Positions 50,144-64,000 of a stretch of 64,000 nt of DNA are shown piece after piece. Position numbers and translations under genes: made by a program. Location of the stretch: assembly GCF_030450125.1 (NCBI RefSeq), contig NZ_CP123923.1:1674001-1738000 (forward strand), given 5' to 3'. Source of the DNA: Streptomyces sp. WP-1. Its GTDB lineage: Bacteria; Actinomycetota; Actinomycetes; Streptomycetales; Streptomycetaceae. Position 1 is the first letter of the stretch; each line of letters begins with the position of its first letter. A model generated the notes under the pieces. It worked only from the letters and a program-made list of their open reading frames with translations, had not been told where the DNA came from and did no database searches.

Positions 50144-50477
50144 CGGCGACTCTCTTCAGCAGGTCGTGGTCGGGCTGGGCGGCGGGCGGGACGGGCGGGC
50201 GTGCCGTCACCAGCCCCTGGTCGATCAGGGCGGCGGCGAGGACCCGGATGGCGGAGACGGGCAGCCGCAGCAGCGCCGCCGCCTCCACCACGGTCAGGGA
50301 GCCGCCCTCCAGCGACTGGAGCAGCGCGTGCTGGGCCGCGGGCAGGTCGCCGAAGACCGGCCCGGCGGTGGAGGTGAGCACCGACAGGCGCTCCAGGCTG
50401 TTACGGCTGGGCCGGGCCACCCCCGAGGTGGAGAGGTAGGCGGGCACCAGCGGACGGCCGGACCGGTGGCCCCTCAC
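50118..50477 (-). CDS. cvnC: Conservon protein CvnC (DUF742)
   Basis: This 119-residue DUF742 protein has LVPAYLSTSGVARPSRNSLE followed by a winged-helix-like LTVVEAAALLRLPVSAIRVL and the short basic C-terminus VADGLRALKL. GTG 50477 overlaps the cvnB stop by four bases (GTGA). It is a standard component of conservons. Confidence 0.92.
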   Translation of the reverse strand: MRGHRSGRPLVPAYLSTSGVARPSRNSLERLSVLTSTAGPVFGDLPAAQHALLQSLEGGSLTVVEAAALLRLPVSAIRVLAAALIDQGLVTARPPVPPAAQPDHDLLKRVADGLRALKL

Positions 50478-50896
50478 AGCAAAGCGCCGCCCTCGGCCGC
50501 GCGGGGGGCCGCGGCCATCGCCTTCTCGCCGAGCCGCGCCACCTGGGAGTGCACGCGGTGGCCGAGCAGGTCGAGCCGGACCTCGGGGTCGCCGTACGCG
50601 GCGACACAGGTGCCGTGGTCGGTCGGGGCGACCAGGATGTAGCCGTGGTCGGACTCGATCACGACCTGCCGCAGCTGGGCGGCGGGCATGTCGGCGAACG
50701 CGGCGGCCGCGGTACGGCAGGCGCCCTGCACGGTGGAGGTGATCGCGGCGACCCGCTCGGCCGACTCCTGGGTGAGCCCCTCCGAGAAGCCGGAGATCAG
50801 GCCGTCCCTGGTGAGCAGGACGGCGGCCTTCACATGCGGGACTTCGAGGATCGGGTCGAGAACCCACGCAGTGTCACCGGTGTCGCGGTTGGTCAT
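50474..50896 (-). CDS. cvnB: Conservon roadblock/LC7 protein CvnB
   Basis: This 140-residue roadblock-fold protein has LDPILEVPHVKAAVLLTRDG and ITSTVQGACRTAAAAFADMP. Roadblock proteins act as regulators of small GTPases, here CvnD. Its start overlaps the cvnA stop by four bases, so the four genes are translationally coupled. Confidence 0.94.
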   Translation of the reverse strand: MTNRDTGDTAWVLDPILEVPHVKAAVLLTRDGLISGFSEGLTQESAERVAAITSTVQGACRTAAAAFADMPAAQLRQVVIESDHGYILVAPTDHGTCVAAYGDPEVRLDLLGHRVHSQVARLGEKAMAAAPRAAEGGALL

Positions 50897-52455
50897 CGGG
50901 GAGCGGTCCCTTCGGATCGAGCTGCATCACGGGCAGCGGCGGTCGCCGACTGCAGGGCGCCGAGGGCCGCTGCGGTCTCCTCGGGCGAGCGGGCGGGGGC
51001 GGCGGTCTCGGCCGCGCTCGGCCGGATCATCGCGGCCTGGTCCGGCGAGACCTGGCGGCGGCGCCGGCGCGGGAGGTCGTCGGCGGCGGGCGCGGGCCGG
51101 TCCGGGCCGGGCGTCGGCCGGTCGTCGCCGGGCGACGGGCGTTCGGAGCCGGACACCGGTCGATCGTGGCCGGGTGCCGGGCGGTCGAGACCGGACGCCT
51201 GCCGGGCGGAGTCGGGCACCGGCTGGGCGGGCGCGTGGGTGTGCTCGGCGTGCTTCACCTGCCCGGGGTGCTGCACGTGCTCGGCGTGCTTCGCCTGCCC
51301 GGGGTGCTGCACGTGCTTGGCGTGTCGCGCGTGCTCGGCCAGCGGTTCGGGCCGGGGCACCTCCCCGGTGCGGGTGGAGGGCGAGGTGCTGGCGGCGGCG
51401 GGGCGCAGCGCCGGGTCGATGTGGCTCAGCAGGTGCCTGTCGACCAGCAGGACCGCCCGTACGCCCCCGTAGGGCGACGGTGTGGACAGGTCGACGGAGA
51501 GGTCGAACTGCCGGGTCAGCTGGCCGATCGCGGCGAGGCCCATCCGGGGCGGGTCGCCCAGGTCGGAGAACATGATCGGATCGGTGCCCCCGACCACCCG
51601 CTGGGCGGCGGCCCGTTCGTCGGGCGCCATGCCGACACCCGCGTCGTCCACGGTCACGGTGACGCCGTTGTGGACGTGTTCGAGGTTGACCACGACCGAG
51701 GTGTCCGGGGAGGAGTGCCGCAGCGCGTTGTCGAGGAGTTCGGCGGCGATGATCGCGACGGGCTCCACGGCGTGCGAGACCAGCGCGGTGCCGGGGTCGA
51801 GGTGGTTGTGGAGCTTGACCCGCCGGTAGCCGGAGAGCCGGGCCTGTCCGCCGGTGACGGCGTCGACGAGGTGCGACTCCTCGCGGGCCAGGCCGACCCA
51901 GGCCCCGCAGACCACGGCGGCGACCTGGGCGCGGCGCAGCGACTGCTCGTTCTCGTGGTCCAGGCTGTAGAGGTCCTGGGCCAACTCCGGTTCGTCGTAG
52001 CGCTGCTGGAGTCCGTGGAGGATGTCCTGGAGGCGGTAGAGGCTCGCCTGGATCTCCCGGGTGGTGCCGCGCATACCGGCGCGGGCGGCGGCGTCGACCC
52101 GCTTGCGTTCCTGGAGGACCGCGGTGCGCAGGGCCGCCAGCACCGGCTCGGTCGCGGCACCCTCGGGGCCGACCGGGCCGGGCACCGGTACGTGCGGGTG
52201 CGCGGTGCGGGACGCCTCGGCCGGCATGCGCCGGGTGGCGAGGTGCTCCAGCTCGGCGGCGAACGCCTGGCGGAGGCGCTCGGCCTCCTCGGCGCCGGCG
52301 CGGGCGGACTGCTCGGCCTGGTGGCGCAGGCCGGTCATCTCCTGTCGCAGCCGGGCGCGTTCACGCCGGGAGCGCCACAGGCCGCTGCCCAGAGCTAGTG
52401 CCGACACCGTCCCGGCGGCCAGGCCTCCGAAGGCCAGCTCCGGTATCTCGATCAT
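50893..52455 (-). CDS. cvnA: Conservon sensor-kinase-like CvnA with His-rich tail
   Basis: The protein has 520 residues. An N-terminal membrane span (LAFGGLAAGTVSALALGSGL) is followed by a coiled-coil region (residues 30-160) and an HATPase domain (AAELLDNALRHSS near 238-249, VDDAGVGM near 269-276). The tail of about 165 residues is unusual: a 12-residue repeat HVQHPGQAKHAE/HVQHPGQVKHAE (381-404) within a His-rich block, then five DRP/ERP-type repeats (424-455) and a basic patch. ATG 52455 is used. The His-rich block may bind metal. Confidence 0.92.
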   Translation of the reverse strand: MIEIPELAFGGLAAGTVSALALGSGLWRSRRERARLRQEMTGLRHQAEQSARAGAEEAERLRQAFAAELEHLATRRMPAEASRTAHPHVPVPGPVGPEGAATEPVLAALRTAVLQERKRVDAAARAGMRGTTREIQASLYRLQDILHGLQQRYDEPELAQDLYSLDHENEQSLRRAQVAAVVCGAWVGLAREESHLVDAVTGGQARLSGYRRVKLHNHLDPGTALVSHAVEPVAIIAAELLDNALRHSSPDTSVVVNLEHVHNGVTVTVDDAGVGMAPDERAAAQRVVGGTDPIMFSDLGDPPRMGLAAIGQLTRQFDLSVDLSTPSPYGGVRAVLLVDRHLLSHIDPALRPAAASTSPSTRTGEVPRPEPLAEHARHAKHVQHPGQAKHAEHVQHPGQVKHAEHTHAPAQPVPDSARQASGLDRPAPGHDRPVSGSERPSPGDDRPTPGPDRPAPAADDLPRRRRRQVSPDQAAMIRPSAAETAAPARSPEETAAALGALQSATAAARDAARSEGTAPR

Positions 52456-52795
52456 GGATGGGGACCTCGCGGATCTCGGATGCGTCTGGGCGTCTGACAG
52501 GAGGGACGGGCGTCGGGGCAAGGGGCGTCCGTTGAATCAGTTGGCAAACTACACACTGTTCGCCGCCGGTTGCACCTGGCATTTGCCCGACTTCCGCGCC
52601 CTTTTGCCTATTTGACAGCCGCTCATCGACCGAACCGTATCCGTAATGGACTCCGGAAGCGGACATCCGACGCCGCCGTCCCTCCCAAGAGGGGTTTGAC
52701 GCGGCGGAACCCGTGCAACGGACGCGGCCGCTCCCCATCCCGATGACAATCACTGTTCGCGACACCAAGGACGCACAGAGCAATCGGGAGGGAAC
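52456..52795. other. Divergent intergenic region between cvnA and the secreted protein
   Basis: No gene is supported. A TTGACA hexamer at 52612-52617 is the best -35 candidate, but no clean -10 follows. The stretch around 52540-52620 is less GC-rich than its surroundings and probably carries the promoters of both transcripts. Confidence 0.4.
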
Positions 52796-53398
52796 GTGTC
52801 ACGCGTGAAGAACCACCGTCTGGCCGCCGTCGTCGCCGCCGCGGGTCTCGTGGGTGCGAGCGCCGTCGCGGTCGGGGGCCTGAGCACCGCGTCGGCCCAG
52901 GCGACGGCCGCGGCGGCGCCCGTCTCGCGGGCGCGGACCGTGGTCGGCCCGGCGAGCGAGCCGGGCGAACCGTCGGTGGCCCACTGCCCGGAGGGCATGC
53001 GCGTCCTCAACGGCGGCTACAACACGGCCGCCTTCAGCCAGTCCAACGGCGGTGAGCCCTACGACGGCGTCCAGGCCGACGCCCCGCTGTCGGACGGCAA
53101 GGGCTGGTTCGCGGGCCTGATGACCGGCCGGGTCCAGGCCCGCGCGGTGTGCGTGCCGCAGGACGAGGCACCGCGCGTCGTCGTGGGACCGACCAGCGGC
53201 GAGCACGCCGACTCGGACGCGCACTGCCCGGAGGGCACCGACGCGGTCGGCGGCGGCTACTACGCGCAGAGCTGGTACAAGAACGGCTGGGGCGAGTCCC
53301 AGGACGCGGTGACGGCCAGCGCGCCCCTCGCCGGCGGCAAGGGCTGGTACGCAAGGCAGTTCGCCGGCAAGGTCCAGGCACGCGCGCTGTGCATCTGA
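52796..53398 (+). CDS. Secreted protein with an internal duplication
   Basis: This 200-residue exported protein has a signal peptide (about 1-34, ending STASAQA). Two copies of a domain of about 70 residues follow (49-119 and 129-199), each starting VVGP, with HCPEG...GGY in the middle, GKGW, and ending with VQARAxC. The paired cysteines Cys64/Cys119 and Cys144/Cys199 are exactly 80 residues apart between copies and probably form a disulfide in each domain. GTG start with GGGAGGG just upstream. Function unknown. Confidence 0.85.
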   Translation: MSRVKNHRLAAVVAAAGLVGASAVAVGGLSTASAQATAAAAPVSRARTVVGPASEPGEPSVAHCPEGMRVLNGGYNTAAFSQSNGGEPYDGVQADAPLSDGKGWFAGLMTGRVQARAVCVPQDEAPRVVVGPTSGEHADSDAHCPEGTDAVGGGYYAQSWYKNGWGESQDAVTASAPLAGGKGWYARQFAGKVQARALCI

Positions 53399-53409
53399 AT
53401 TGTGCGGAA

Positions 53410-53434
53410 GAGGCCCGGCGGACGGCCGGGCCTC
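53410..53434. terminator. Bidirectional terminator hairpin
   Basis: A 10-bp stem GAGGCCCGGC (53410-53419) with GCCGGGCCTC (53425-53434) and a 5-base loop lies between the convergent ends of the secreted protein and the flavin reductase genes. Confidence 0.8.
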
Positions 53435-53455
53435 CTGGCGAACCATCACCGCGCT

Positions 53456-53956
53456 TCAGTGACTCGCCGCCGCGGCCGGCCAGGTGCTGTACGAGCCGCG
53501 GCAGTACAGCAGCGGCTCCCGGGAGTACGTGTCTCCCCCGTGGACGTCGGCGATCAGCAGCCAGTGGTCCCCGGCGTCGACGGTCTGCACGGTGCGGCAC
53601 TCCGCGTAGGCGAGCGCGATGTCGGTGAGGATCGGCGCGCCCCCGGCATGCGCGGAGGGCTCCCAGACGAGGCCCGCGAACTTGTCCGGCCCCTTGTCGG
53701 CGAAGGTGCGGGAGGCCTGCTCACCGGATTCGGCGAGGAAGTTGACCACGAACGCGCCGGAGGCGGCCAGCGCCGGGAACGTCTGGGAACTCTTGCCGAC
53801 CCCGACGAGCAGCCTCGGCGTCGCGGCCGAGACCGAGCAGACGGCGTTGCAGGTGAAGCCGCGCGGCCTGCCCTGCTCGTCCAGCGCCGTGACGATGGCG
53901 ACGGCCGTCGGGAAGGAGCCGAAGATCTTGCGGAACCGCTCGCTGTCTAGGGACAT
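53456..53956 (-). CDS. Flavin reductase family protein
   Basis: This 166-residue FMN-binding split-barrel protein has FRKIFGSFPTAVAIVTALDE, PRGFTCNAVCSVSAATPRLL and FVVNFLAESGE, typical of reductase components of two-component flavin monooxygenases. It is the last gene of the minus-strand biosynthetic operon, 24 bases after the ATP-grasp gene. It probably supplies FMNH2 to the SsuD-like monooxygenase encoded at the other end of the operon. Confidence 0.9.
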   Translation of the reverse strand: MSLDSERFRKIFGSFPTAVAIVTALDEQGRPRGFTCNAVCSVSAATPRLLVGVGKSSQTFPALAASGAFVVNFLAESGEQASRTFADKGPDKFAGLVWEPSAHAGGAPILTDIALAYAECRTVQTVDAGDHWLLIADVHGGDTYSREPLLYCRGSYSTWPAAAASH

Positions 53957-53980
53957 GTGGATCTCACCATGCTTTCGGAT

Positions 53981-55237
53981 TCAGAGCAGTTCGTGCTCGA
54001 GCTCGCGGATCACCTTGTGTGCGTTGTCGATCTCGGTGGGGTCGGGATGCACCAGGAACACGGCGCCGGGCGAGGAGTTGAGGTCCACGGTCGGCCGGGT
54101 GGCCGCGCCGTCGGCGATCCGGAACCGGACGCTCTCGAAGGCCGGGATCCGCTCCAGCGCGGACGTGATGGCCGCGAGCGGCAGCGGTACGGCACGACGC
54201 GCCATGAGGTTGACGCAGCGCGCCCGCTGGAGCACCGGGTAGCGGGCCGGGCGGGCGGCGAGCGCGACGCCGTCGCCCGCGTGGCAGTCGAGGGTGAGGC
54301 TCACCTGGTTGGCGCCGGTGCACAGGTCGAGCGCGGCCGGGTTGGCCAGCCCCGAGACGCGCGCCCCGGTCTCCAGGAGCAGCGGGCCCCGCGCGGTGAG
54401 GATCAGCTCGCTGTGCGCGGGCCCGTCGGTGATGCCGAGGGCGTCCAGGGAGCGTGCGATGTACGGCAGGACGACGTCGAGCACCGGGTCGTCCGGCGTC
54501 AGCAGGTCCTCCGCCTCGTAGATCCGGCGGCCGCCCTCCCGTACCTGCTTGCGGCTGATCCAGGCGTCGGTGAACCAGTGACTCCCGTCGCGGCTCACGG
54601 TGTTGACGATGTACTCGTCCCCGGCGAGGTACTCCTGGGCGAGCACCTCCTCGTTCACCCGGAGCATGATGTTGGTCTTGCCGAGGACGGCCCGGCAGGC
54701 GTCCAGGACCTCCTGCTCGCTGTCGCAGGTGTAGACGTCGTCGGAGCCCGCGCTGTCCAGCGGCTTGATCACGAGGCGCGCGATGTCCGGGTGGCGGCGC
54801 CACCAGGCGAGCAGTTCGGCGGGGTCGCCGGAGCGGCACTGCCGGGCCGTGGGCACGCCCGCCCGGGAAAGGGCCTCCATCATCAGGGACTTGTCGCGGC
54901 GGGCGGCGGACAGCGCGGGGTCGTTGCCGCGCAGCCCGAGCCGGTGGGCGAGTTCGTCCGCCGCCTCGACGCCGAACTCGCTGGCGGCGACGACGCCCAC
55001 GGGGCGCTGCGCCCTCAGGCGGTCCAGCACCTCGGCCTCGTGGCCGGGGTAGGTGAGGTCCTCGGCGAGCAGTGCGCTCGGCAGGCTCGCGCCGAAGGTG
55101 CCGGACGCGAGGTCGCGGGAGCGCACATGCAGGACGCGATGGGTCCCGGCCGCCTCGCGGGCCAGCATCGCCCCCGTGGAGAACGCGTCCACCAGGACCA
55201 GGGCGGGCCGGTCCTGGGGTTGGTGCGGGACAGTCAT
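53981..55237 (-). CDS. ATP-grasp ligase
   Basis: This 418-residue ATP-grasp enzyme shows LVIKPLDSAGSDDVYTC (ATP-binding lysine), EVLAQEYLAGDEYIVNTV, the acidic ELILTARGPLLLETGARVSG and a D-x-N motif region (VDLNSSPGAVFLV). This subgroup joins a carboxylate to an amine through acyl-phosphate and often forms dipeptides in natural-product clusters. Its start overlaps the end of the mutase-like gene by four bases (ATGA). The substrate is likely the amino acid made by this operon (inference). Confidence 0.88.
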   Translation of the reverse strand: MTVPHQPQDRPALVLVDAFSTGAMLAREAAGTHRVLHVRSRDLASGTFGASLPSALLAEDLTYPGHEAEVLDRLRAQRPVGVVAASEFGVEAADELAHRLGLRGNDPALSAARRDKSLMMEALSRAGVPTARQCRSGDPAELLAWWRRHPDIARLVIKPLDSAGSDDVYTCDSEQEVLDACRAVLGKTNIMLRVNEEVLAQEYLAGDEYIVNTVSRDGSHWFTDAWISRKQVREGGRRIYEAEDLLTPDDPVLDVVLPYIARSLDALGITDGPAHSELILTARGPLLLETGARVSGLANPAALDLCTGANQVSLTLDCHAGDGVALAARPARYPVLQRARCVNLMARRAVPLPLAAITSALERIPAFESVRFRIADGAATRPTVDLNSSPGAVFLVHPDPTEIDNAHKVIRELEHELL

Positions 55238-56499
55238 GGGCGGGGAACCAATCTGGGCTCGGACGACGCGCTGTCGTAGCGCTGCGCCACGTGGTTGAGC
55301 ATCCCGTACAGATCGTCGGAGGAGAGCCGGCCGGCGGTACGGGGGGTGGGGGTGCTCAGGGGCAGGTTTCCGGTGGACCCCCAGGCCAGCGCGCCGCGTT
55401 CGTCGATGACGCAGGTCGCCGCCGCCCTGTTGTCGGGGTGGAGGCAGTAGGGGATGTCGAGCAGGCCGAGCCGGAACGCCTCGGTCAGCGCGGTGCCGAT
55501 GTCCGCGTCGAGGTTCAGCACCGCCTCCACGATGGCCCGGGCCTCGGCGAGCGTCTCCTCGTAGTACGCGTCCTCCTCGGCACCGCGGGCGGCCGCCGGT
55601 CCGCGCGCGGCGGCGGCGGCGAGCCGCAGCGCGGACAGGTTCTCCGAGACGCTCGGGATCTGCCACGCCTCGGAGACCGTCTTGACGATCAGCCGCTCGC
55701 AGCCCGCGTCCCGGGCGAGCCGCGCGCTGTCCTCGATGAGGGCCCCGGCGCCCGCCGGGGTGCGCGGGAACAGGCCCATGTACGTGTACAGGACCACGTG
55801 CCAGGTGGTGTCCCCCAGCAGTTCGGACGCGAGGGTGCGCAGCGCCCGCAGGGCCCCGCGGTCCTGTGCGGCCAGGGTGCCCTGGGCGTAGCTGAAGGAC
55901 ATGTGGCGCAGCCCGTGGGCGTGGAAGAAGCAGCCCTCCAGCACCGCCGTCGCCACCAGCAGCGAGGGCGGGCAGAGCTGGCCGAGCAGGCAGCCGCCGA
56001 AGCTCTCGATGTGCCCGTGCCCGGTCTCCCCGGCCAGCATCAGGCAGCTCTCCGACCAGGCGCGCACCGCGTCCGCGAGGGGGAGCCTGCTGTAGGGCAG
56101 GCAGTACGAGACGGGGCCGCCCTCGGTGGCGTCCAGGCCGACCTCGACCAGCCGGCGGAACACGGCCAGCGGTCGTGCCGTGCCGTGCCGGACCTGTACG
56201 GGGAACTCCGGTCCGTACAGGTCCGTCAGCATGTCCCGGGTGGCGGCCGCGGGGTGGGAGACGAGCGGGTAGCCGTTCAGCTCCTCGTCCGCGGCCAGCC
56301 GCTCCAGCGGGGTGGTGTGGTCGCCGACCCGGGTGTAGCTGTCGATGGTGATCGTGCCCACCACGGGGAAGTCGAGGGCGGCCACCTCGCGCAGCCCGGC
56401 CGCCATCGCGCCGATCCTGCCGAAGCCCATGCGGGGCTGCACGACCAGGGTGCGGTCGGCCCGGCGGCCGGCCACGAACCGGTCGAGGTAGCCGGTCAC
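55234..56499 (-). CDS. Glutamate mutase (methylaspartate mutase) E subunit-like protein
   Basis: This 421-residue TIM-barrel protein is about 40 residues shorter at the N-terminus than GlmE. The substrate-binding residues known in Clostridium GlmE (Arg66, Arg100, Arg149, Glu171, Tyr177, Tyr181) find counterparts with constant offset: Arg23 in QPRMG, Arg57 in DSYTR, Arg104 in QVRHGT, Glu126 in TEGGP, Tyr132 and Tyr136 in SYCLPYS. IVKTVSEAWQIPS and LDIPYCL also align. It should perform adenosylcobalamin-dependent carbon-skeleton rearrangement with the B12 subunit at 59244-59732, probably glutamate to 3-methylaspartate. GTG 56499 overlaps the preceding stop. Confidence 0.88.
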   Translation of the reverse strand: MTGYLDRFVAGRRADRTLVVQPRMGFGRIGAMAAGLREVAALDFPVVGTITIDSYTRVGDHTTPLERLAADEELNGYPLVSHPAAATRDMLTDLYGPEFPVQVRHGTARPLAVFRRLVEVGLDATEGGPVSYCLPYSRLPLADAVRAWSESCLMLAGETGHGHIESFGGCLLGQLCPPSLLVATAVLEGCFFHAHGLRHMSFSYAQGTLAAQDRGALRALRTLASELLGDTTWHVVLYTYMGLFPRTPAGAGALIEDSARLARDAGCERLIVKTVSEAWQIPSVSENLSALRLAAAAARGPAAARGAEEDAYYEETLAEARAIVEAVLNLDADIGTALTEAFRLGLLDIPYCLHPDNRAAATCVIDERGALAWGSTGNLPLSTPTPRTAGRLSSDDLYGMLNHVAQRYDSASSEPRLVPRP

Positions 56500-58004
56500 C
56501 GCCCTGAGATCAGTTCGGTGGCGGGGGCTCCGCTGGCCGGGTCGATGGTGGCCACGTGGTACTTGTGCGGGTCGCCGGCCCGGACGCGGGAGATGATCGT
56601 CCCCGGGGTGCCGAAGTCGACCAGGCTGCTGGTGTAGAGGGTGCGCAGGTGGGTGAGGCCGAGGCCGGAGACCTCCTGGAGCCAGGCGGCGGTCTCGTCG
56701 TCGGTCCCGGCGTCCGCCGCGCCGAGCACGGCGTGGATGCGGTCCGCCGCGGCCGCCCTGTCGGGGTGGCAGCGTTCGAGGAAGGCGGCCAGCCGTGCGC
56801 CGCGGTCGGTGAAGGGCGAGAACACCATGGCCACGAGCGCCTCCTCGGACAGTCCGAACGCCTCCCGCGCGAACTCGGCGGAGAGCTGCCGCCGGTGGAT
56901 CCGCTTCTCCGGGGTGTCGTAGCGGCTGAGCGCGAGGTCGACGAGGTTCTGCGGCATCTCCTTCTTGTGCATCAGCTCCTCGGCCAGCTCCAGGTACTCG
57001 GCCAGGCCCTCGTCGTACGTCCGGCCCTGGACGAACTCGGCCCGCAGCGCGCGCAGATGGGCCATCAGGCCGGGGTTGGCGCAGTCGGACTCGCTGAAGC
57101 TGAAGGCGAGTTCGTCGAACTGGAACCCGAGGAAGTCCACGATGAGGTCCCAGTGGTCGTGCACCCGGTAACTCACCAGGTCGTAGACCGAGATGAACTG
57201 CGGCTGCATCGAGCGGTCGCCGGTGGACACCTCGCGCTCGGCGAGTTCGCTCTCGCTGTCGTCGCCGAACAGCTCGCGGAAGTAGGTGTCGCCGATGCCG
57301 CGCAGGGCCAGCAGGATGCCCCGGAAGCCCATCGTGCGGCACTCCTGCACATCCACGCCGGATGCCTTGGCGAGCCGCATGATCCAGGCGGAGTACAGGA
57401 GTTGCTCGCGCCGGGAGTCGCCGGTCATCACCACGTCGACACCGCCGTCGAACCAGGCGGCGCGGCCGTAGAAGTCGGCGACGGCCAGGTTGCAGCTGTT
57501 GCAGAAGGTCGGCCGGCCGTCGCCCGCGGCGCGGTGGCCGTTCATCAGGACGTCGACGCGGTTCATGTCGATCAGGCGCTCGGGCAGCGGCAGGTCGACG
57601 TGGAAGGGGCGGACCAGCGTGTGGTCGATGGTCAGCAGTTCCGCCCGGTCGTCGTCGAGCAGGCCGAGCGCCCGGTAGACGCGGTCGATGTTCTCCATGA
57701 CGGCCCGGGGCACGCCCGCGTGCCGCATGTTGGCGACGCGCAGCGTGAAGGTGCGGCCGAAGTTCAGCGCGAGGTGCAGCTGCACCGCGCGCACGAACGC
57801 GACGACGTACGTGCTGTCCTTGCCGCCGCCGTAGGCCACCATGACCTTGTAGTCGGGCAGCGCGTCGATGCCGCCCGCGGCCTCCACGAGCCGTTCTCCG
57901 GTCGCCTTGACGCCGTCGAGCTCCACATCGCTGAGGAAGCCGGTCAGCTGGGCGTGCAGCGTCGGGTACCGCTCGTTCGCGGGCTCCCCCGTGTGCTGGT
58001 TCAT
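56496..58004 (-). CDS. PP-loop ATPase of unknown function
   Basis: This 502-residue PP-loop (N-type) ATPase has VMVAYGGGKDSTYVVAF at residues 55-70 and a CxxC (Cys168/Cys171 in PTFCNSCNLAV) before DVVMTGDSRREQL. The arrangement recalls N-acetyl-sugar amidotransferases and tRNA thiolases, which adenylate a carbonyl and replace it with N or S. The 270-residue C-terminal half has no match I recognise. It sits between the mutase subunits in the operon with 4-base overlaps on both sides, so it probably acts on the same substrate. Confidence 0.75.
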   Translation of the reverse strand: MNQHTGEPANERYPTLHAQLTGFLSDVELDGVKATGERLVEAAGGIDALPDYKVMVAYGGGKDSTYVVAFVRAVQLHLALNFGRTFTLRVANMRHAGVPRAVMENIDRVYRALGLLDDDRAELLTIDHTLVRPFHVDLPLPERLIDMNRVDVLMNGHRAAGDGRPTFCNSCNLAVADFYGRAAWFDGGVDVVMTGDSRREQLLYSAWIMRLAKASGVDVQECRTMGFRGILLALRGIGDTYFRELFGDDSESELAEREVSTGDRSMQPQFISVYDLVSYRVHDHWDLIVDFLGFQFDELAFSFSESDCANPGLMAHLRALRAEFVQGRTYDEGLAEYLELAEELMHKKEMPQNLVDLALSRYDTPEKRIHRRQLSAEFAREAFGLSEEALVAMVFSPFTDRGARLAAFLERCHPDRAAAADRIHAVLGAADAGTDDETAAWLQEVSGLGLTHLRTLYTSSLVDFGTPGTIISRVRAGDPHKYHVATIDPASGAPATELISGR

Positions 58005-59242
58005 ATGCGCGTGGCCTCGAATTCGAAGGTGTCGATGATGCGGTGGATGTCGGCCTCCACCCGGGACTCGTCGTCGCCCAGGAGGATGAAGCGGCCGCTG
58101 TGCAGGGCGTCGTAGGAGCCGCCGGGCTGGAGCACCTCGCCGACCGGGGGCAGCAGCTCCCGCCAGATCGAGGGCACGCTCGCGCGCAGCGAGACGGCCT
58201 TGGTGACCCGCGCGGGCAGGTCGGCCGGCTTGGGCACGCACAGCCAGCCGCCGGACGGATCGCCGGACTTGGTGGTGATCCGCGCGGTGGACTCGCCGCC
58301 CACGGCACGCAGCCAGACCTCGAAGAGGTTGACCCCGAAGAGCTTGTTCAGCAGGTGCGGCACCTCGCTGCCGCCCACCCGGCCGCCGATCTCCAGGAAC
58401 ACGAGCTCGTCGTCGGGCGTGACGAAGACCTCCAGGTGGAAGGGGGTGGTGCGGATGCCGAGGGCGGCGACGCACTCCCGGCTGAACGCCTCGATACGGT
58501 CCCGCAGTTCGCTGTTCTGGACCACCACGGAGCCGAGCGGGGCGCCGAGGCCGAAGGCCAGGCAGTCGTTCACATAGCGGGAGACGACCTGGAAGGGGAC
58601 CTCCGCGTGGTCGTCCGCGTAGCCGTCGATGTGGAAGATGCGGCCGGTGACGAACTCCTCGATCTCGTACCGGGACAGGTCGAGGGTGGGCAGCAGCTCG
58701 GTGAGCCGGCCCTCGTCCTCGACGCGGTGCACGCCGATGCTGGCGGCGCCGTCGACCGGCTTGAGGATCACCGGGTAGCCGGCGCTCCGCGCGAACTCCA
58801 CGGCCGCTTCCGGGGTTTCGCAGCTGCCGAAGCGCGGGACCCGGACGCCCTTGAGGGCGAGGATCTCCTTCATCCGCACCTTGTCGCGGTAGACCGCGAC
58901 CTCGTCCGGGGTCGGGCCGGGGATGCCGAGGTCCCGGCGGACCCGGGCGGCGATCTCCAGGGTGAACTCGGACAGCGCGACGAGCTGGTCCACCGGGCCG
59001 ACCCGGCGGGTGATCTCGGCGACCGCGTCCCGCAGCGCCTCGAAGTCGTTGACGTCGTCGACCTGGACCTGCGCGGCGATCTTCGCGGGGTCGGCGAGCA
59101 CGCCCTCGGCGCCGAGCGGGTCCACCACATAGCTGACCCGGTGGGCGTCGTGGTCGATGAACTCCTCGTAGCGCGTCAGCTCGTTGTCCCAGCGCACGCC
59201 GTCGGAGAAACGCGGCCAGCGGTTGACGATGACGATGTGCAT
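58001..59242 (-). CDS. ATP-grasp ligase
   Basis: This 413-residue ATP-grasp enzyme has GYPVILKPVDGAASIGVHRV (ATP-binding Lys), IEEFVTGRIFHIDGY and a metal-binding EVFVTPDDELVFLEIGGRVG. It belongs to the carboxylate-amine ligase branch (biotin-carboxylase/BacD-like layout). A second ATP-grasp gene in one operon suggests two successive couplings. It begins one base after the stop of the B12-subunit gene. Confidence 0.9.
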   Translation of the reverse strand: MHIVIVNRWPRFSDGVRWDNELTRYEEFIDHDAHRVSYVVDPLGAEGVLADPAKIAAQVQVDDVNDFEALRDAVAEITRRVGPVDQLVALSEFTLEIAARVRRDLGIPGPTPDEVAVYRDKVRMKEILALKGVRVPRFGSCETPEAAVEFARSAGYPVILKPVDGAASIGVHRVEDEGRLTELLPTLDLSRYEIEEFVTGRIFHIDGYADDHAEVPFQVVSRYVNDCLAFGLGAPLGSVVVQNSELRDRIEAFSRECVAALGIRTTPFHLEVFVTPDDELVFLEIGGRVGGSEVPHLLNKLFGVNLFEVWLRAVGGESTARITTKSGDPSGGWLCVPKPADLPARVTKAVSLRASVPSIWRELLPPVGEVLQPGGSYDALHSGRFILLGDDESRVEADIHRIIDTFEFEATRI

Positions 59243-59243
59243 T

Positions 59244-59732
59244 TCAGACTGCTCCTGCGATCATGAGTTCCTGGTTGTCCCACGGCGGTACGGGGGCGGA
59301 GGGCGGCTGCCAGGCGGCGAAGCCGTGCTGCCTGCCGCGGTGGAGGAAGTCCCGGAAGCGGGGGACGGCTTCCTCGCCGGTGAACACGTCGGCCCAGCCC
59401 TGGGCGATCAGATCGCGGCGCACCCGGTCGTTGTCCGACTCCGAGGTGGTCAGCTTTCCGCCCACGACACAGGGCAGTTCGACGCCCCGGCGCCGGAGTT
59501 CGGTCATCAGGAGCCGGGCGCCGTGATGGCCGTGCCCGTTGATGCTGGAGACCACGAGCAGATCGGGGCGGTGCTCCTCGATGCCGCGCAGCACCTCCGG
59601 CACCGGGGTGCAGCTGCCGAGGTTGCGCACCAGGCCGCCGTGCTCCTCCAGGAGCTTCTGGAGATAGACCAGGTTCCAGATGTGGGAATCGGATTCGACG
59701 GTGCTCACGAGGCACCGGAAGGACGTACTCAA
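59244..59732 (-). CDS. Cobalamin-binding subunit resembling glutamate mutase S
   Basis: This 162-residue Rossmann-like B12-binding domain carries VESDSHIWNLVYLQKLL, a DxH motif with Asp15 and cobalt-ligand His17. The usual following Gly is Asn20, a deviation from DxHxxG. VVSSINGHGHHGARLL and the GG of PCVVGGKLT match the SxL and GG motifs. TTG 59732 overlaps the end of the MFS gene (TTGA). It should pair with the GlmE-like protein; the two genes are separated by the PP-loop and ATP-grasp genes. Confidence 0.88.
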   Translation of the reverse strand: MSTSFRCLVSTVESDSHIWNLVYLQKLLEEHGGLVRNLGSCTPVPEVLRGIEEHRPDLLVVSSINGHGHHGARLLMTELRRRGVELPCVVGGKLTTSESDNDRVRRDLIAQGWADVFTGEEAVPRFRDFLHRGRQHGFAAWQPPSAPVPPWDNQELMIAGAV

Positions 59733-60970
59733 GACTGCACTCCTACGGGAAGTCGTTCACGATCCGTGAGCGTCCGGCGGAAGCTGCGCATGGTCAGGGG
59801 CAGGAGGACGGCGCCGAAGACGCTGAGCACCACGGCGAGCACGCCCACCAGGCGCTGCGGCCCGTACGTGGCCCCGACGCTGCCGACCAGCAGTCCTGCG
59901 ATGGGGTACGACAGGAGGTTGAGCAGGTAGAAGGGCCCCATCACCTTCCCGAGGTGCTCCCTGGGGATCACCTTCACCCGCGAGGTGCGGTTGAAGACGT
60001 TGTAGTACGCGGTCCCGGTGAGCACCGCGATGAACAGCACGGCGTAGACCGGGAAGGAGCCGGCGATGCCGATCAGCAGCAGCGCGGCGCACAGCACCGC
60101 GAAGCCGAGCACACCGAGCAGCGGGACCTCGAACCGCTTGAGGACCAGCGGGATCACCAGCAGGTTGACCAGTCCGACGACGCCGACGCAGGTGTTGAGC
60201 AGCGCGAACGACCAGTCGGGCGCGGCGAAGACGCCGGTCACCAGTGCCGCGTTGGCGCTGAGCACCGAGGCCACCACGAGGTTGATGCCGAAGTTGAGGA
60301 TGCCGAGCAGCAGGACGGGGCGGTTGCCGGCCATCAGCTTCCAGCCCAGGCCCAGTTCGCGCATGGTCTCCCGCGTGGTCGTCGGTTCGCCCGGCCGCTC
60401 GCCGCGCGGCAGCGGCAGCCAGCAGGCGGCGGCGAGGGCGAACACGGAGGCGGCGACGGCCAGCAGCCACACCTTGCCGATCAGCGCGGCGGCGAGCGTG
60501 GCGAGCGCCGGCCCGAGGGCCATCGCGAGCAGCTCCATGTTCTGCACCAGTGCCTGGGTGCGCGCCATGGCCTCGCCCGCCGCCAGCTGGGGCACCATCT
60601 TCTCGACGGACATCCGGGTCGGCGCGACCAGGATCGACAGGACCGCACCGCTGGTCATCAGGGCGGGCGTGGTCCAGCCGGGCCGGGTCAGCAGGACCGC
60701 CACGACCACGGCGAGCACCACCGCGCGGGAGCCGGTCACGACGGAGAACAGCCGGGCGCCGCCGTCCCGGTCGGCGATGAGGCCGGCGAAGGGATAGGCG
60801 ATCAGACCGGGCAGCCACTCCAGCGCGAACGCGTAACCCAGCGTGGAGACTTGTTTGGTGTCCTGGAAGAGCAGCAGCGGTACCGCGAACATCACGACCT
60901 GCTCGGCCATCAGACCGAGCAGCACGCCCGCGCCGAACAGGCCGCGGCCGTAGCGGGGTTGAGGGGTCAC
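59729..60970 (-). CDS. MFS transporter
   Basis: This 413-residue major facilitator has about twelve spans (GVLLGLMAEQVVMFAVPLLL, LEWLPGLIAYPFAGLIADRD motif A region and later ILNFGINLVVASVLSANAAL). It resembles the MFS-3/enterobactin-exporter-like group often used to export natural products. GTG 60970 overlaps the LLM stop by four bases (GTGA). Product export or self-resistance is a reasonable inference. Confidence 0.9.
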   Translation of the reverse strand: MTPQPRYGRGLFGAGVLLGLMAEQVVMFAVPLLLFQDTKQVSTLGYAFALEWLPGLIAYPFAGLIADRDGGARLFSVVTGSRAVVLAVVVAVLLTRPGWTTPALMTSGAVLSILVAPTRMSVEKMVPQLAAGEAMARTQALVQNMELLAMALGPALATLAAALIGKVWLLAVAASVFALAAACWLPLPRGERPGEPTTTRETMRELGLGWKLMAGNRPVLLLGILNFGINLVVASVLSANAALVTGVFAAPDWSFALLNTCVGVVGLVNLLVIPLVLKRFEVPLLGVLGFAVLCAALLLIGIAGSFPVYAVLFIAVLTGTAYYNVFNRTSRVKVIPREHLGKVMGPFYLLNLLSYPIAGLLVGSVGATYGPQRLVGVLAVVLSVFGAVLLPLTMRSFRRTLTDRERLPVGVQS

Positions 60971-62034
60971 GAACCCGCCGCCGCGTTCCGCTCGTGCTCG
61001 CGGATCAGCGGGGCGACATGCGTGTAGAAGATCCGCATCTCGTCGCGCGTCGGCCAGCCGGAGAAGATGAACTCGCTGACGCCCGCGGCCTTGTAGGCGT
61101 AGAGGTACTCGGCGACCTCCGCGTAGCTGCCGACGACGCACAGCGCCGGGCCGCCCCGGTAGGCGACGGCGCCGGACCACAGCATCGGCGACAGCCAGTC
61201 GTCGGAGGCGGTGTCGGCGAGCCGGAAGGAGGTCTTGACGGCCTCGGAGTCGGACTTGCCGACGAAGTCGCTGACCCAGGCGCGGTGTTGCTCGTCGGGG
61301 TCGCGCATCATGTCCTCGACGGCGGCGAGCGCCTCGGCGCGGGTCTCCCGGGCGAGGACGTGCATCCGGATGCCGACCTCGCAGCCCTGGGACAGCAGCG
61401 GCTCGGTGACGGCCGCGATGCCCTCGGGGGTGTCGCCGTAACGCAGCCAGCAGTCGGCGTACTTGATCGCGGTCTTCTGGGCGACGGCGGAGGCACCGCT
61501 GATGTAGATGTGCGGACGGCCGCCGCCCTTGTAGCCGAGGCCGAGCTGCGCGTCCTCGATGGTGTAGTGCTCGCCCTTGTGGGTCAGCGGCGTCTCGCCG
61601 CGCCAGAAGCGGTGGCAGACATCGAGGAACTCCTCGGACCTGGCGTACCGCTGGTCATGCGCGAGAAAGTCACCGTAAAAAGCCTGCTCGGCCGGGGATA
61701 TTCCGGCGACGAGATTCAGCGCGATGCGCCCGTCGGACATCCAGGAGACGGTGTTCACGATCTGGGTGAACAGTGTGGGAGAAAGCAGTCCGGGGCGGTA
61801 GGCGAGGATGAACTTGACCCGTTCGGTTTCCCGGACGAGAGCACCGATCATCGGAAGGGGATCGGGCATGTGGTAACTGATTCCCATGAGGAGGGAATCA
61901 ACCCCGAGTTCATCCGCCTCACGGGCGAAATCAACTATCCCGTCAAAATCGAGCTCACCTGCCTGGTACTTGTCGGTGGCCTTCTGCTGGCCACTGTCCA
62001 GAGGCGAACACCAGTGCAACTTCAGATCGTCCAT
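60967..62034 (-). CDS. SsuD-like LLM-class flavin-dependent monooxygenase
   Basis: This 355-residue luciferase-like monooxygenase has LLMGISYHMPDPLPMIGALV, RVKFILAYRPGLLSPTLFTQ, GRIALNLVAGISPAEQAFYG and AVAQKTAIKYADCWLRYG, matching FMNH2-dependent alkanesulfonate-monooxygenase-type enzymes. It is the first gene of the eight-gene operon, while its probable flavin reductase partner is the last. In this setting it may hydroxylate or oxidise an amino-acid-derived intermediate rather than desulfonate (inference). Confidence 0.92.
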   Translation of the reverse strand: MDDLKLHWCSPLDSGQQKATDKYQAGELDFDGIVDFAREADELGVDSLLMGISYHMPDPLPMIGALVRETERVKFILAYRPGLLSPTLFTQIVNTVSWMSDGRIALNLVAGISPAEQAFYGDFLAHDQRYARSEEFLDVCHRFWRGETPLTHKGEHYTIEDAQLGLGYKGGGRPHIYISGASAVAQKTAIKYADCWLRYGDTPEGIAAVTEPLLSQGCEVGIRMHVLARETRAEALAAVEDMMRDPDEQHRAWVSDFVGKSDSEAVKTSFRLADTASDDWLSPMLWSGAVAYRGGPALCVVGSYAEVAEYLYAYKAAGVSEFIFSGWPTRDEMRIFYTHVAPLIREHERNAAAGS

Positions 62035-62407
62035 AGCTACCCACCCGAAAAGACTTGGTCTTTACAGCCGACGGCCGAACAAGGAGATAAATGGCGGATC
62101 AGAAGAACTCTGCCGACGCCATGCGACTTGTGTCCGACCTTGACACGTCTCCTGACGTTACGTCAAGATCACGACGCTGCTCGCAGTAGAGAGTAAACCT
62201 CCGACTTTGACTTCGCGGACGAGGGACGGCCTTGAAGGGCTGTGCTTCATCTCACACGCAAAGGTTGCGACCGGCTTGCGTTCGCTTACGAAATAGGTCA
62301 GAGCAAAGGCAAATGATTTCTCAACGTTGGTTCAGCCTGAGGTGAGCGGAATGTTTCGCCCCGGATCGGCCGGCCGACGCGACCGACGGACATGAAAGGT
62401 TACGAGG
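62035..62407. promoter_or_regulatory. Divergent promoter region of the biosynthetic cluster
   Basis: No gene is supported in these 373 bases. A TTGACA -35 candidate lies at 62140-62145, and TGACGT-T-ACGTCA (62153-62165) is a perfect palindrome placed between the two divergent transcripts. It may be the site of a cluster regulator encoded elsewhere. Confidence 0.5.
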
Positions 62408-63403
62408 TTGTCCCAGGAGACGGGTAGGGTCCAACTGCCCACCCCACGCGCCCACCTGACGTCGGACCGGACCCGCGCCACGCTGGCGGTGCAGAGCAAG
62501 TTCCTTGCCGGGGCCAGGGAGTTCCTGGTCGGCGAGGGCTTCCAGGAGCTGCTGCCGCCCACGATCGGACCGGTCACCGACCCCGGCGCCCGCGGTGCCA
62601 AGCAGGTCGACATCGACTACTACGGGCACCGCTACAAGCTGATGACCAGCGGAATCCTGTACAAGCAGGCCTCCCTGCTCAGCTTCGACAAGATCTTCCA
62701 CGTGGCCCCGAACGTGCGACTCGAACCGCTGGAGACCGCGGTCACCCACCGCCACCTGGTGGAGTTCCACCAGCTCGACGTGGAGATCGGCGAGGGCTCC
62801 CGCGAGGACGCCCTGGACATCGCCGAGCGGCTCACGAAGCACGTGGTGGAGTACGTCCTCGTGCACGCCCAGCCCGAACTGGCGGTGCTCGGCCGCGACT
62901 TGGAGGCATTCAAGCAGATACTCGCCGGCCCCTACGGCCGCCGGAGCCACGCCGACGTCGTCGCGGACCTCCAGGCCCGCGGGCACGCGCAGGAGGCCGG
63001 TGCGGAGGTGGACTGGGAGGGCGAGGAGATCATCTCCCGGGCCGCCGCCCACCCCTTCTTCATCACCGACTACCCCAAGGGCTCGCGCGGCTTCTACGAC
63101 AAGGAGAGCACGACGGAGCCGGGGGTGCTGCGCAACTTCGACCTCATCTTCCCGGGCGGTTTCGGCGAGATGATGAGCGGAAGCGAACGCGAATCCGACT
63201 ATCGCAATCTCGTCATGCGCATCCGGGAAACCGGCGAGAACCCCGCCAAGTATGACTGGTACTTGACGCTGGCCCGCGAGGGACTCCCGTCCAGCGCCGG
63301 CTTCGGGCTCGGCGTGGAGCGCTTCACCCGGTTCCTGTGCGGCCTCGACGCGGCCTGGCAGGCGTCGGGCTACCCGAAGCTCCCGGGGGACCCGCGGCCA
63401 TGA
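62408..63403 (+). CDS. Asparagine-synthetase-like class II aminoacyl-tRNA synthetase paralogue
   Basis: This 331-residue protein has the class II catalytic core of Asp/Asn-tRNA synthetases: motif 2 FHVAPNVRLEP... THRHLVEFHQLDVEI and motif 3 SSAGFGLGVERFTRFL. It lacks the N-terminal anticodon-binding domain. Archaeal enzymes of this kind make asparagine from aspartate without tRNA, so here it may amidate an aspartate analogue such as 3-methylaspartate (inference). TTG start with AAAGG about 8 bases upstream; the stop overlaps the next start (ATGA). Confidence 0.88.
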   Translation: MSQETGRVQLPTPRAHLTSDRTRATLAVQSKFLAGAREFLVGEGFQELLPPTIGPVTDPGARGAKQVDIDYYGHRYKLMTSGILYKQASLLSFDKIFHVAPNVRLEPLETAVTHRHLVEFHQLDVEIGEGSREDALDIAERLTKHVVEYVLVHAQPELAVLGRDLEAFKQILAGPYGRRSHADVVADLQARGHAQEAGAEVDWEGEEIISRAAAHPFFITDYPKGSRGFYDKESTTEPGVLRNFDLIFPGGFGEMMSGSERESDYRNLVMRIRETGENPAKYDWYLTLAREGLPSSAGFGLGVERFTRFLCGLDAAWQASGYPKLPGDPRP

Positions 63404-64000
63404 CCGATCTCCACGCCCCGGGCTTCCCCCGGCAGCAGGTGGCGGAACGCGCCCGGCACGGCACCGCGTCGGCGTTCCCCGAAGCCGCCGGCTACGGGAC
63501 GACCATGTTCGGGCAGGGGCCCCCGGAGCCGGACGTGCCCCTGGACGCGATCGACCGGACCCGGCTGGTGCCCCCGGTCTTCGTGCCCCGGCGCCTTGAG
63601 CGGCTGATCGACCTGGGCCGCGAGCCGGTGGTGTCGGACGCCGAACTCGCCACCACCATCGGGGGGTTCAGCGCTCCGCTGCCGGTCTACGTCTCCGCGT
63701 TCGGCTCGACCCGGGTCGCCAGCGGCGACCTCGGCCAGGCCGTAGCACGCCAGGCGGGCCGGCTGGGCATCCCCATGGTCATTGGCGAGAACATCGTCCC
63801 TGTCGCCGGATACGGCCGCATGACGGAGACGGCTCCCAGCTCGCTGCTGCAAAGGATCACGGAGTACGCCGCCGCCGTCCCCGACGGACAGGGCGGTGTG
63901 GTCGTCCAGCAGAGCACCGAGGACGCCGACGCCGAGGTCTGGAACCTCGTCTACAGCGATCCCGCGGTGCAGCCGCTGCTCGAATCGGGCCGTCTGGCCT
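63400..64000 (+). CDS. FMN-dependent alpha-hydroxyacid dehydrogenase/glutamate-synthase-like protein (partial)
   Basis: The first 200 residues of a TIM-barrel FMN enzyme are visible. LPVYVSAFGSTRVASGDLGQ followed by ARQAGRLGIPMVIGENI resembles the FMN-binding start of lactate oxidase, type 2 IPP isomerase and the glutamate synthase large subunit. The gene runs off the window. It is coupled to the asparagine-synthetase-like gene by a 4-base overlap and is likely another tailoring enzyme. Confidence 0.8.
   Translation, partial: MTDLHAPGFPRQQVAERARHGTASAFPEAAGYGTTMFGQGPPEPDVPLDAIDRTRLVPPVFVPRRLERLIDLGREPVVSDAELATTIGGFSAPLPVYVSAFGSTRVASGDLGQAVARQAGRLGIPMVIGENIVPVAGYGRMTETAPSSLLQRITEYAAAVPDGQGGVVVQQSTEDADAEVWNLVYSDPAVQPLLESGRLA

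Follow-up and report, generated by a model that had tools for sequence, protein, structure and literature searches.

A candidate NRPS/PKS-independent gene cluster of Streptomyces with an exchangeable glutamate mutase module and an unnamed PP-loop enzyme family

Introduction

Glutamate mutases supply NRPS and PKS assembly lines, for example those of friulimicin and vicenistatin. In the friulimicin, vicenistatin and sceliphrolactam lines, the catalytic subunit GlmE and a B12-binding subunit serve to make 3-methylaspartate, and the same role is predicted here for a locus of Streptomyces sp. WP-1. In contrast to these systems, no NRPS or PKS was found near this locus, and its GlmE belongs to a clade separate from 30 other Streptomyces GlmEs. 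Amide bonds can also be formed by ATP-grasp ligases, without an NRPS, as in dapdiamide and other L-amino-acid-ligase clusters; one of the ligases at the present locus is DdaF-like. To our knowledge, dapdiamide-type clusters contain neither a glutamate mutase nor a PP-loop enzyme nor a luciferase-type (LLM) monooxygenase. A third point of comparison is provided by TtcA, TtuA, Ncs6 and YcfA, which combine a PP-loop with a CxxC motif and a further Cys and use ATP to activate an amide-like oxygen; the PP-loop protein studied here also has a CxxC and a third Cys, the latter three residues off in alignment with TtcA, and its ATP chemistry is predicted to be similar. Whereas TtcA, TtuA and Ncs6 comprise about 300 residues, the new protein has about 500, with a long C-terminal helical region in the predicted fold; unlike them, it has no family match and lies in a small-molecule gene context.

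Other small clusters, from Pantoea, were passed over by tools that seek NRPS/PKS cores, according to one report (PMC7744662), and such tools may miss clusters of the present kind as well. This article examines a window of 64,000 nucleotides (the whole stretch of DNA analysed; contig NZ_CP123923.1, positions 1,674,001 to 1,738,000). On balance, its right-hand part probably harbours a cluster that makes a small peptide or a modified amino acid independently of NRPS and PKS enzymes, by the chemistry proposed below. As judged from its genes, it appears to be a novel form of the NRPS-independent peptide clusters.

Gene content and layout

Every gene named in the first-pass annotation is borne out, namely eight on the minus strand and a divergent plus-strand pair beside them:

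53456..53956, minus strand: flavin reductase (PF01613, over the Pfam cut-off), likely partner of the LLM monooxygenase
53981..55237, minus strand: ATP-grasp ligase 2, DdaF/PRK07206-like (NF005543), L-amino acid ligase relative
55234..56499, minus strand: GlmE-like methylaspartate (glutamate) mutase catalytic subunit (GTG start; PF06368)
56496..58004, minus strand: PP-loop enzyme of an unnamed family (GGKDS, FCNxC, ESDCxNP, C-terminal SGR)
58001..59242, minus strand: ATP-grasp ligase 1 (PF13535, 47.2 bits against a cut-off of 27)
59244..59732, minus strand: B12-binding subunit, GlmS-like (TTG start; PF02310, 49.3 bits against 32.1)
59729..60970, minus strand: predicted MFS exporter (PF07690)
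60967..62034, minus strand: LLM FMN monooxygenase, alkanesulfonate-monooxygenase-like (PF00296)
62408..63403, plus strand: asparagine synthetase A of the class II tRNA-synthetase type, AsnS (TTG start; NF005052)
63400..64656, plus strand: FMN enzyme, Glu_synthase/FMN_dh type, crossing the window end at 64000
64887..65816 in the window frame (genome 1738887-1739816), just beyond the window: PanE-like reductase (KPR)

The eight minus-strand genes (53456-62034) are closely spaced. Five of the seven junctions are 4-bp overlaps and the other two are gaps of 1 bp and 24 bp; the block therefore reads as one operon. Rfam gave no match within 52000-64000 at the gathering threshold. The KPR gene belongs to the conserved set; with it, the locus counts eleven neighbouring genes.

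The glutamate mutase module

The GlmE-like protein scores 253.1 bits against PF06368 (cut-off 26.6) and falls short of the equivalog model for methylaspartate mutase E, TIGR01503 (135.6 against 390.1 bits). Alignment with solved GlmE (6h9e/1cb7) confirms the earlier observation that all six substrate residues are in register; in the Clostridium cochlearium enzyme we take these to be R66, R100, R149, E171, Y177 and Y181. All six are present in each of 17 cluster mutases, and 14 of these match all four motif patterns; the variants are DSYNR and QLRHG in L024 and QARHG in L017 and L019. The mutase of L023 has LRY in place of the LPY seen in the others.

In a tree that took 17 of the 22 cluster mutases (L008, L013, L015, L018 and L077 were omitted; long rows, L023 among them, were included), the cluster GlmEs form one clade with support 99/85, apart from 30 other GlmEs. 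This comparison set is drawn entirely from Streptomyces and consists of the best-scoring loci and the genome's own second copy.

The B12 subunit lies below the cut-off of NF002612, the equivalog for methylaspartate mutase S (52.4 against 110 bits), and as a putative GlmS-like protein is assignable to PF02310 only. At the cobalamin motif DxHxxG it reads, by eye, DSHIWN; Asp and His are retained and Asn replaces Gly. A paralogue in the same genome has DSHTWN.

Ligases, AsnS and redox enzymes

Ligase 2 exceeds the cut-off of NF005543, the PRK07206 ATP-grasp subfamily (329.7 against 302 bits), and is related to the L-amino acid ligase 30vh (E 1.7e-48); against the equivalog for dapdiamide A synthase DdaF it reaches 193.1 bits and misses the cut-off of 840. 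Ligase 1 has the L-amino acid ligases 4wd3 and 3vot among its relatives. Of the initial proposal, the presence of two ATP-grasp enzymes with L-amino-acid ligase relatives and of an exporter gene is supported; a small peptide as their product is a prediction.

AsnS (331 residues, without an anticodon-binding domain) passes NF005052 with 417.6 against 368 bits, and 3p8t, an asparagine synthetase A from an archaeon, is one of its relatives. The enzyme might also join a different amine or accept a different substrate. As homologues with 62-68% identity occur widely among actinobacteria, the AsnS gene alone is no cluster marker.

The nearest solved relatives of the LLM protein are alkanesulfonate monooxygenases. 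Among the SsuD residues that we presume to be functional, equivalents of R226, H228 and R297 are retained and those of C54 and Y331 are not; the score of 180.8 bits is under the SsuD equivalog cut-off of 518.2, and the predicted monooxygenase is assignable to PF00296 only. In an alignment of nine KPRs with Escherichia coli PanE, the equivalents of K176 and E256, presumably catalytic, are invariant; Leu and Ala replace N180 and N184 in all nine, residues that we take to contact pantoate. The putative reductase is accordingly placed in the ApbA/PanE superfamily only. Self-resistance conferred by KPR or by an accessory PanB is conceivable, but KPR lacks these two Asn residues.

The PP-loop family

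The PP-loop protein matched no Pfam or NCBIfam model; its label rests on the GGKDS motif and the predicted fold. A PDB sequence search gave no meaningful match. GGKDS, CxxC and a third Cys are invariant across a 26-row family alignment; the cysteines of the window protein are C168, C171 and C308. Among the 120 homologues listed, 119 have at least 450 residues; FCNxC occurs in all 119 of these and ESDCxNPxxMAH in 117. In the open-licence literature, papers on Pantoea and on thioamides included, no known product could be linked to the PP-loop loci. Pantoea PNP-1 was considered as the same cluster and set aside; it differs in having carbamoyl- and formyltransferase genes (PMC4010436).

Distribution and module exchange

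The cluster proposed on first reading of this DNA is real, and it is conserved: ten of the eleven genes are co-located in all 16 actinobacterial loci that have the mutase, the run from the LLM gene to ligase 2 has an identical order in all 16, and the flavin reductase gene adjoins the cluster in seven. The genes are found together and inherited together. Recurrence of the set in three genera (Streptomyces, Nocardia and Cellulomonas) indicates more than chance. A reduced operon with AsnS, B12 subunit, PP-loop, GlmE and exporter genes occurs in the Gammaproteobacteria Methylobacter and Salinisphaera. Genes in loci L025-L028 were placed by tblastn.

The PP-loop gene is also found in other company. 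No mutase lies inside the retrieved flanks of 28 of 46 PP-loop loci. Comparison of 120 listed of 408 PP-loop matches with 120 listed of 2663 mutase matches indicates, by identical lengths of the longest contig, at least 32 genomes apparently common to both, Pseudomonas and Ramlibacter among them; this is co-occurrence by genome, not by gene order. A substantial PP-loop match was found in 13 of 392 Streptomyces genomes (one of the 13 broken; five of the mutase type by identity). In the phylum sample, three of 396 genomes matched: that of WP-1 itself, G208 and G387, the last over 28 positions. The gammaproteobacterial sample gave two among 369, Methylobacter and G633, where the match spans 45 positions. 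Four Streptomyces hits were excluded from the counts as weak and partial: those in G806, G993 and G1043, and the second hit of G770; two of these (L073 and L074) resemble, by eye, LytR-type proteins. Since the occurrence is so patchy, a role in primary metabolism was judged unlikely.

Module exchange is visible in the Streptomyces locus L079. This carries the LLM, MFS, both ligase and flavin reductase genes at 58-82% identity, together with a PP-loop gene and, directly after the latter, a gene for a TauE-family permease. Mutase, B12 subunit, AsnS, FMN enzyme and KPR genes are lacking in L079, and a VioC/GntD-type oxygenase (under every equivalog cut-off) is present; the mutase and AsnS are swapped for an oxygenase. 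The PP-loop family is the constant element, and the mutase is an exchangeable supply module. To call the cluster 'built on' the mutase, as was first done, is therefore too strong: with 81 of 199 genomes carrying one, a GlmE gene is common within Streptomyces, and other loci exchange this module. From the genes that L079 shares with the window cluster it follows that the shared enzymes plausibly accept a beta-substituted residue.

Proposed pathway and alternative readings

From these genes, we infer the following chemical steps. GlmE and its B12 subunit, judged by the conserved residues and the partner gene, would convert L-glutamate to 3-methylaspartate, and AsnS would amidate the beta-carboxylate to give 3-methylasparagine. 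The PP-loop enzyme may then use ATP to activate the side-chain amide, so that oxygen is replaced by sulfur (a thioamide) or nitrogen (an amidine). Tailoring of the residue would fall to the FMN enzyme and KPR, which accompany the mutase module, and to the LLM/flavin reductase pair, which accompanies the ligases. The two ATP-grasp ligases would attach the residue to one or two more amino or hydroxy acids, and the product would leave via the MFS protein. Glutamate mutase would thereby gain a role outside NRPS/PKS assembly lines.

For the PP-loop step, one reading within this pathway, though at less than even odds, is an iron-sulfur thiolase that turns an asparagine-type side-chain amide into a thioamide. 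The invariant GGKDS and cysteine motifs and the TauE-family gene behind the PP-loop gene in L079 are consistent with this; TtcA is the best of eight E. coli PP-loop proteins (70.8%, then TilS at 36.1%), its CxxC falls on the family CxxC in the profile alignment, NcsA, LarE and TtuA appear within the first 15 Foldseek rows, and YcfA of 6-thioguanine offers a precedent (PMC6225789). However, the match to TtcA is not significant: TtcA and WbuX family profiles gave no family match to the window protein at E up to 5, and three of 26 family members match the TtcA profile (best E 0.17). The third Cys sits three residues off the one that we take to be a TtcA ligand, and the cluster has no sulfur-carrier gene. 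It is somewhat doubtful that the enzyme instead uses ammonia to form an amidine (or amide), like the N-acetyl sugar amidotransferases WbuX and LegG. The top Foldseek row is an amidotransferase, but at E 8.6e-3 only, and nothing was found at E up to 0.001; the WbuX profile, built from the six of 12 loci that fit the motif used, scores 64.7 against 79.7 for TtcA, with overlapping single-protein scores (five TtcA at 38.8-77.4, six WbuX at 2.5-43.7). Two of the 26 members match TIGR03573 (best E 0.086), the window protein not among them. The Cys motifs of WbuX precede the PP-loop and have no correspondence in the new family. No Pfam model matched the putative amidotransferase, nor does it have a counterpart in the window cluster. 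By sequence, the protein appears to be fileable neither as TtcA nor as WbuX.

As regards the cluster as a whole, it is very improbable that it merely feeds an NRPS or PKS encoded far away. The literature on GlmE points to assembly lines such as those of macrolactams as the usual setting, and the genome has 46 condensation-domain matches; the nearest of these NRPS domains lie about 376 kb to the left and about 400 kb to the right, however, which agrees with the initial statement that none is visible here. No condensation domain was found in the ten scanned of 38 flanking gene calls, and a rightward extension by 37 kb held no gene call of NRPS/PKS size (the PKS search covered gene calls and the ten scanned flanking proteins). 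Among the genes common to 14 compared mutase loci, shared genes only being considered, there is no NRPS/PKS gene, and the cluster has its own ligases and predicted exporter. That the cluster is already known under another name is improbable: S. griseofuscus and S. murinus are examples of named species with close homologues, but the open-licence literature yielded no such cluster, in keeping with the novelty first proposed.

A broader version of the thiolase proposal is less secure, and we regard it as unlikely though attractive: the PP-loop family would be a new Fe-S enzyme thiolating the side-chain amide of asparagine and 3-substituted asparagines. A free thioamide amino acid would then be the hidden warhead common to clusters of genera as diverse as Streptomyces, Nocardia, Pseudomonas and Pantoea; glutamate mutase with AsnS, or alternatively a beta-hydroxylase, would form the exchangeable modules that feed it, and ATP-grasp ligases would pack it. 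In any case, a widespread family for which no Pfam or NCBIfam model was found is the common factor of several differing small clusters, and the natural swap of mutase and AsnS for an oxygenase makes the chemistry directly testable.

A separate observation concerns locus L076, where, by eye, an AsnB-like protein is encoded near the PP-loop gene.

Composition and borders of the cluster

The cluster is real: it is an eleven-gene actinobacterial set with no NRPS or PKS genes found nearby, and there is also a shorter proteobacterial form. The window spans bases 1674001–1738000 of a single 7.6-Mb contig, and the region examined around the cluster extends about 12 kb to its left and 37 kb past the right window end. 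Eight genes run on the minus strand; of their seven junctions, five are 4-bp overlaps and the other two leave gaps of 1 bp and 24 bp. A divergent pair, AsnS and the FMN enzyme, continues past the window edge, and the PanE-like reductase KPR adjoins the cluster outside the window.

Genes of the cluster in window coordinates, with family-scan results.
Start 62034, minus: luciferase-type monooxygenase (LLM), Bac_luciferase match
Within the run, minus: exporter, MFS match
Within the run, minus: B12 subunit, B12-binding match
Within the run, minus: ATP-grasp-1 and ATP-grasp-2, both ATP-grasp; one of the two above the PRK07206 cut-off and DdaF-like
56496–58004, minus: PP-loop protein, 502 aa, no model matched in family scans
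Within the run, minus: mutase, Met_asp_mut_E match
End 53456, minus: flavin reductase, Flavin_Reduct match
Divergent pair, end 64656: AsnS, class II tRNA-synthetase-type, above the asparagine synthetase A cut-off; FMN enzyme, Glu_synthase/FMN_dh match
64887–65816: KPR, PanE-like reductase

Mutase and B12 subunit both fall below the NCBI equivalog cut-offs and are therefore filed at Pfam-family level. By sequence, the solved relatives are glutamate mutase for the mutase, L-amino acid ligases for the ATP-grasp proteins, AsnRS and archaeal asparagine synthetase A for AsnS, alkanesulfonate monooxygenases for LLM, glutamate synthase for the FMN enzyme, and PanE proteins for KPR. Each of the six glutamate mutase substrate residues is in register in the window protein, as the first-pass annotation had read for a GlmE-like subunit. 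Its calls for the B12 subunit, the ATP-grasp pair, the exporter, the two-component monooxygenase (flavin reductase plus LLM), AsnS and the FMN enzyme each have a family match. Relatives of AsnS (62–68% identity) are widespread in actinobacteria, so that AsnS alone is no marker of the cluster.

To the left lie the gene of a secreted protein and an operon with histidine-kinase and P450 genes; the operon is found beside the cluster again only in close Streptomyces (L007, L009, L020). The stretch 46960–52338 encodes, in succession, a histidine kinase, a pair of small proteins, a small GTPase and two P450s (by eye, the kinase excepted) and is a conservon-like operon.

Conservation of the mutase-type cluster

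With the PP-loop protein as query and one genome per species, 46 loci were obtained, and 18 of these have a mutase within the fetched flank. All 16 actinobacterial mutase loci (Streptomyces, Nocardia, Cellulomonas) share ten genes: AsnS, FMN enzyme, KPR, LLM, MFS exporter, B12 subunit, ATP-grasp-1, PP-loop, mutase and ATP-grasp-2. The order from LLM to ATP-grasp-2 is identical in every one; the flavin reductase is present in seven. The AsnS–FMN pair and KPR are relocated yet kept within the cluster in Cellulomonas (L016) and Nocardia panacis (L024), which identifies them as members. When 15 loci, 14 with mutase, were compared all against all, no further gene proved common to all. The short form in Methylobacter (L022) and Salinisphaera (L023) consists of AsnS, B12 subunit, PP-loop, mutase and an EamA exporter; this operon also occurs on a 349-kb Methylobacter plasmid.

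In protein searches, 32 exact lengths of the longest contig, those of Pseudomonas and Ramlibacter among them, occur both in the best 120 of 408 PP-loop matches and in the best 120 of 2663 mutase matches; equal length is taken to mean the same contig. All 32 lie within the 77 closest PP-loop matches. In a tree, 17 cluster mutases, Proteobacteria included, occupy one side of a branch (99/85) versus 30 other Streptomyces mutases.

Mutases are common in Streptomyces (81 of 199 genomes); mutase-type PP-loop genes, typed by at least 73% identity, are rare (5/392), and in four of these five genomes (G000, G770, G796 and G1026) a mutase was seen beside them. This genome sample probably overlaps the strains of the per-species scan, so that neither set is independent of the other. 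The strain has a second mutase locus at genome position 4607966–4616638 (L006:7966–16638), where a single open frame holds GlmE and about 700 additional, FAD/NAD-binding-like residues; a B12 subunit, an AMP-ligase-like protein, an MFS exporter and an FMN enzyme are also present (all by eye).

The PP-loop family as the constant element

The first-pass annotation described a cluster built on a glutamate mutase. The mutase is indeed there with its six residues, but it is absent, within the fetched flanks, from 28 of the 46 PP-loop loci; the constant element across cluster forms is the unnamed PP-loop family, a more interesting finding than that title conveyed. The partners of the PP-loop gene in Pantoea, Erwinia and several Streptomyces loci are a further ATP-grasp gene, an oxygenase, a YbaK-type tRNA-editing protein and an EamA exporter; some of these loci lack part of the set (18 loci compared). 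Between the mutase and the mutase-free type of locus, the EamA proteins are 42–45% alike. In Kitasatospora (L027) and Streptomyces G828 the PP-loop gene has NRPS-like neighbours or is part of an NRPS-like gene (by eye).

Several individual loci may be recorded here. The mutase-free cluster of Pantoea and relatives (L030:11470–15700, and similar ones among L029–L052) comprises ATP-grasp, a WelO5-like oxygenase, the YbaK-type protein and the EamA exporter, together with a MocR-type regulator encoded divergently. In G828 (L081:6242–10918) the PP-loop domain and an NRPS-type protein (by eye) share one open frame. A mutase-free-type gene in another Streptomyces (G1132:C1:2534777–2536235) is apparently broken, in three pieces with one in-frame TGA.

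The most telling mutase-free locus is L079, from Streptomyces G964. Its identities to the window proteins are 82% (LLM), 71% (MFS), 73% (ATP-grasp-1), 69% (ATP-grasp-2) and 58% (flavin reductase); mutase, B12 subunit, AsnS, FMN enzyme and KPR have no match in the 20-kb stretch. It also encodes an adenylation protein, an MbtH-like protein, an FkbM methyltransferase and an oxygenase that comes closest to clavaminate synthase, GntD and VioC but scores below each cut-off. Because L079 shares the ligation, oxidation and export genes and has an oxygenase instead of the mutase set, the cluster looks modular, with modules for supply of a beta-substituted amino acid, for the PP-loop enzyme, and for ligation, oxidation and export. 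We infer every chemical step: the supplied residue would be 3-methylasparagine in the window cluster and a 3-hydroxy or 3-methoxy analogue in L079. Directly after the PP-loop gene, L079:10909–11664 encodes a TauE/SafE-family permease, a hint of sulfur chemistry.

Assembly-line genes in the surroundings

At first pass no NRPS/PKS genes were visible at the cluster, and such domains were also absent from ten Pfam-scanned proteins, the two longest included, of 38 flanking gene calls. PKS were looked for among these proteins, and NRPS condensation domains genome-wide; of the latter, the nearest above cut-off end at 1351106 and start at 2139998, which places them about 376 kb and 400 kb away. Some 33 kb to the right of KPR there is an IucA/IucC-type gene, which looks separate.

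Pantoate-type enzymes

In nine aligned KPR proteins, the catalytic PanE residues K176 and E256 are kept, and the pantoate-contacting N180 and N184 are replaced by Leu and Ala; the KPR substrate therefore likely differs from that of PanE. Besides the cluster KPR, G000 has one, weakly matching, ApbA_C protein and G796 none. KPR and PanB (ketopantoate hydroxymethyltransferase) may take part in product assembly or in producer protection.

Methylobacter BlB1 (G001) carries two PanB genes, neither placed beside the operon, and Salinisphaera (G002) also carries two. The accessory Salinisphaera gene is part of the operon, with mutase and exporter on either side (L023:4252–5049), and the PanB gene of the Methylobacter YRD-M1 plasmid is about 9 kb away from the PP-loop gene (L075:22264–23091). 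The reduced cluster of Salinisphaera and of the Methylobacter plasmid is accompanied by an accessory PanB subfamily. Between the two genera these accessory proteins share 54% identity, and with the other PanBs compared 37–42%; their catalytic residues are kept (by eye).
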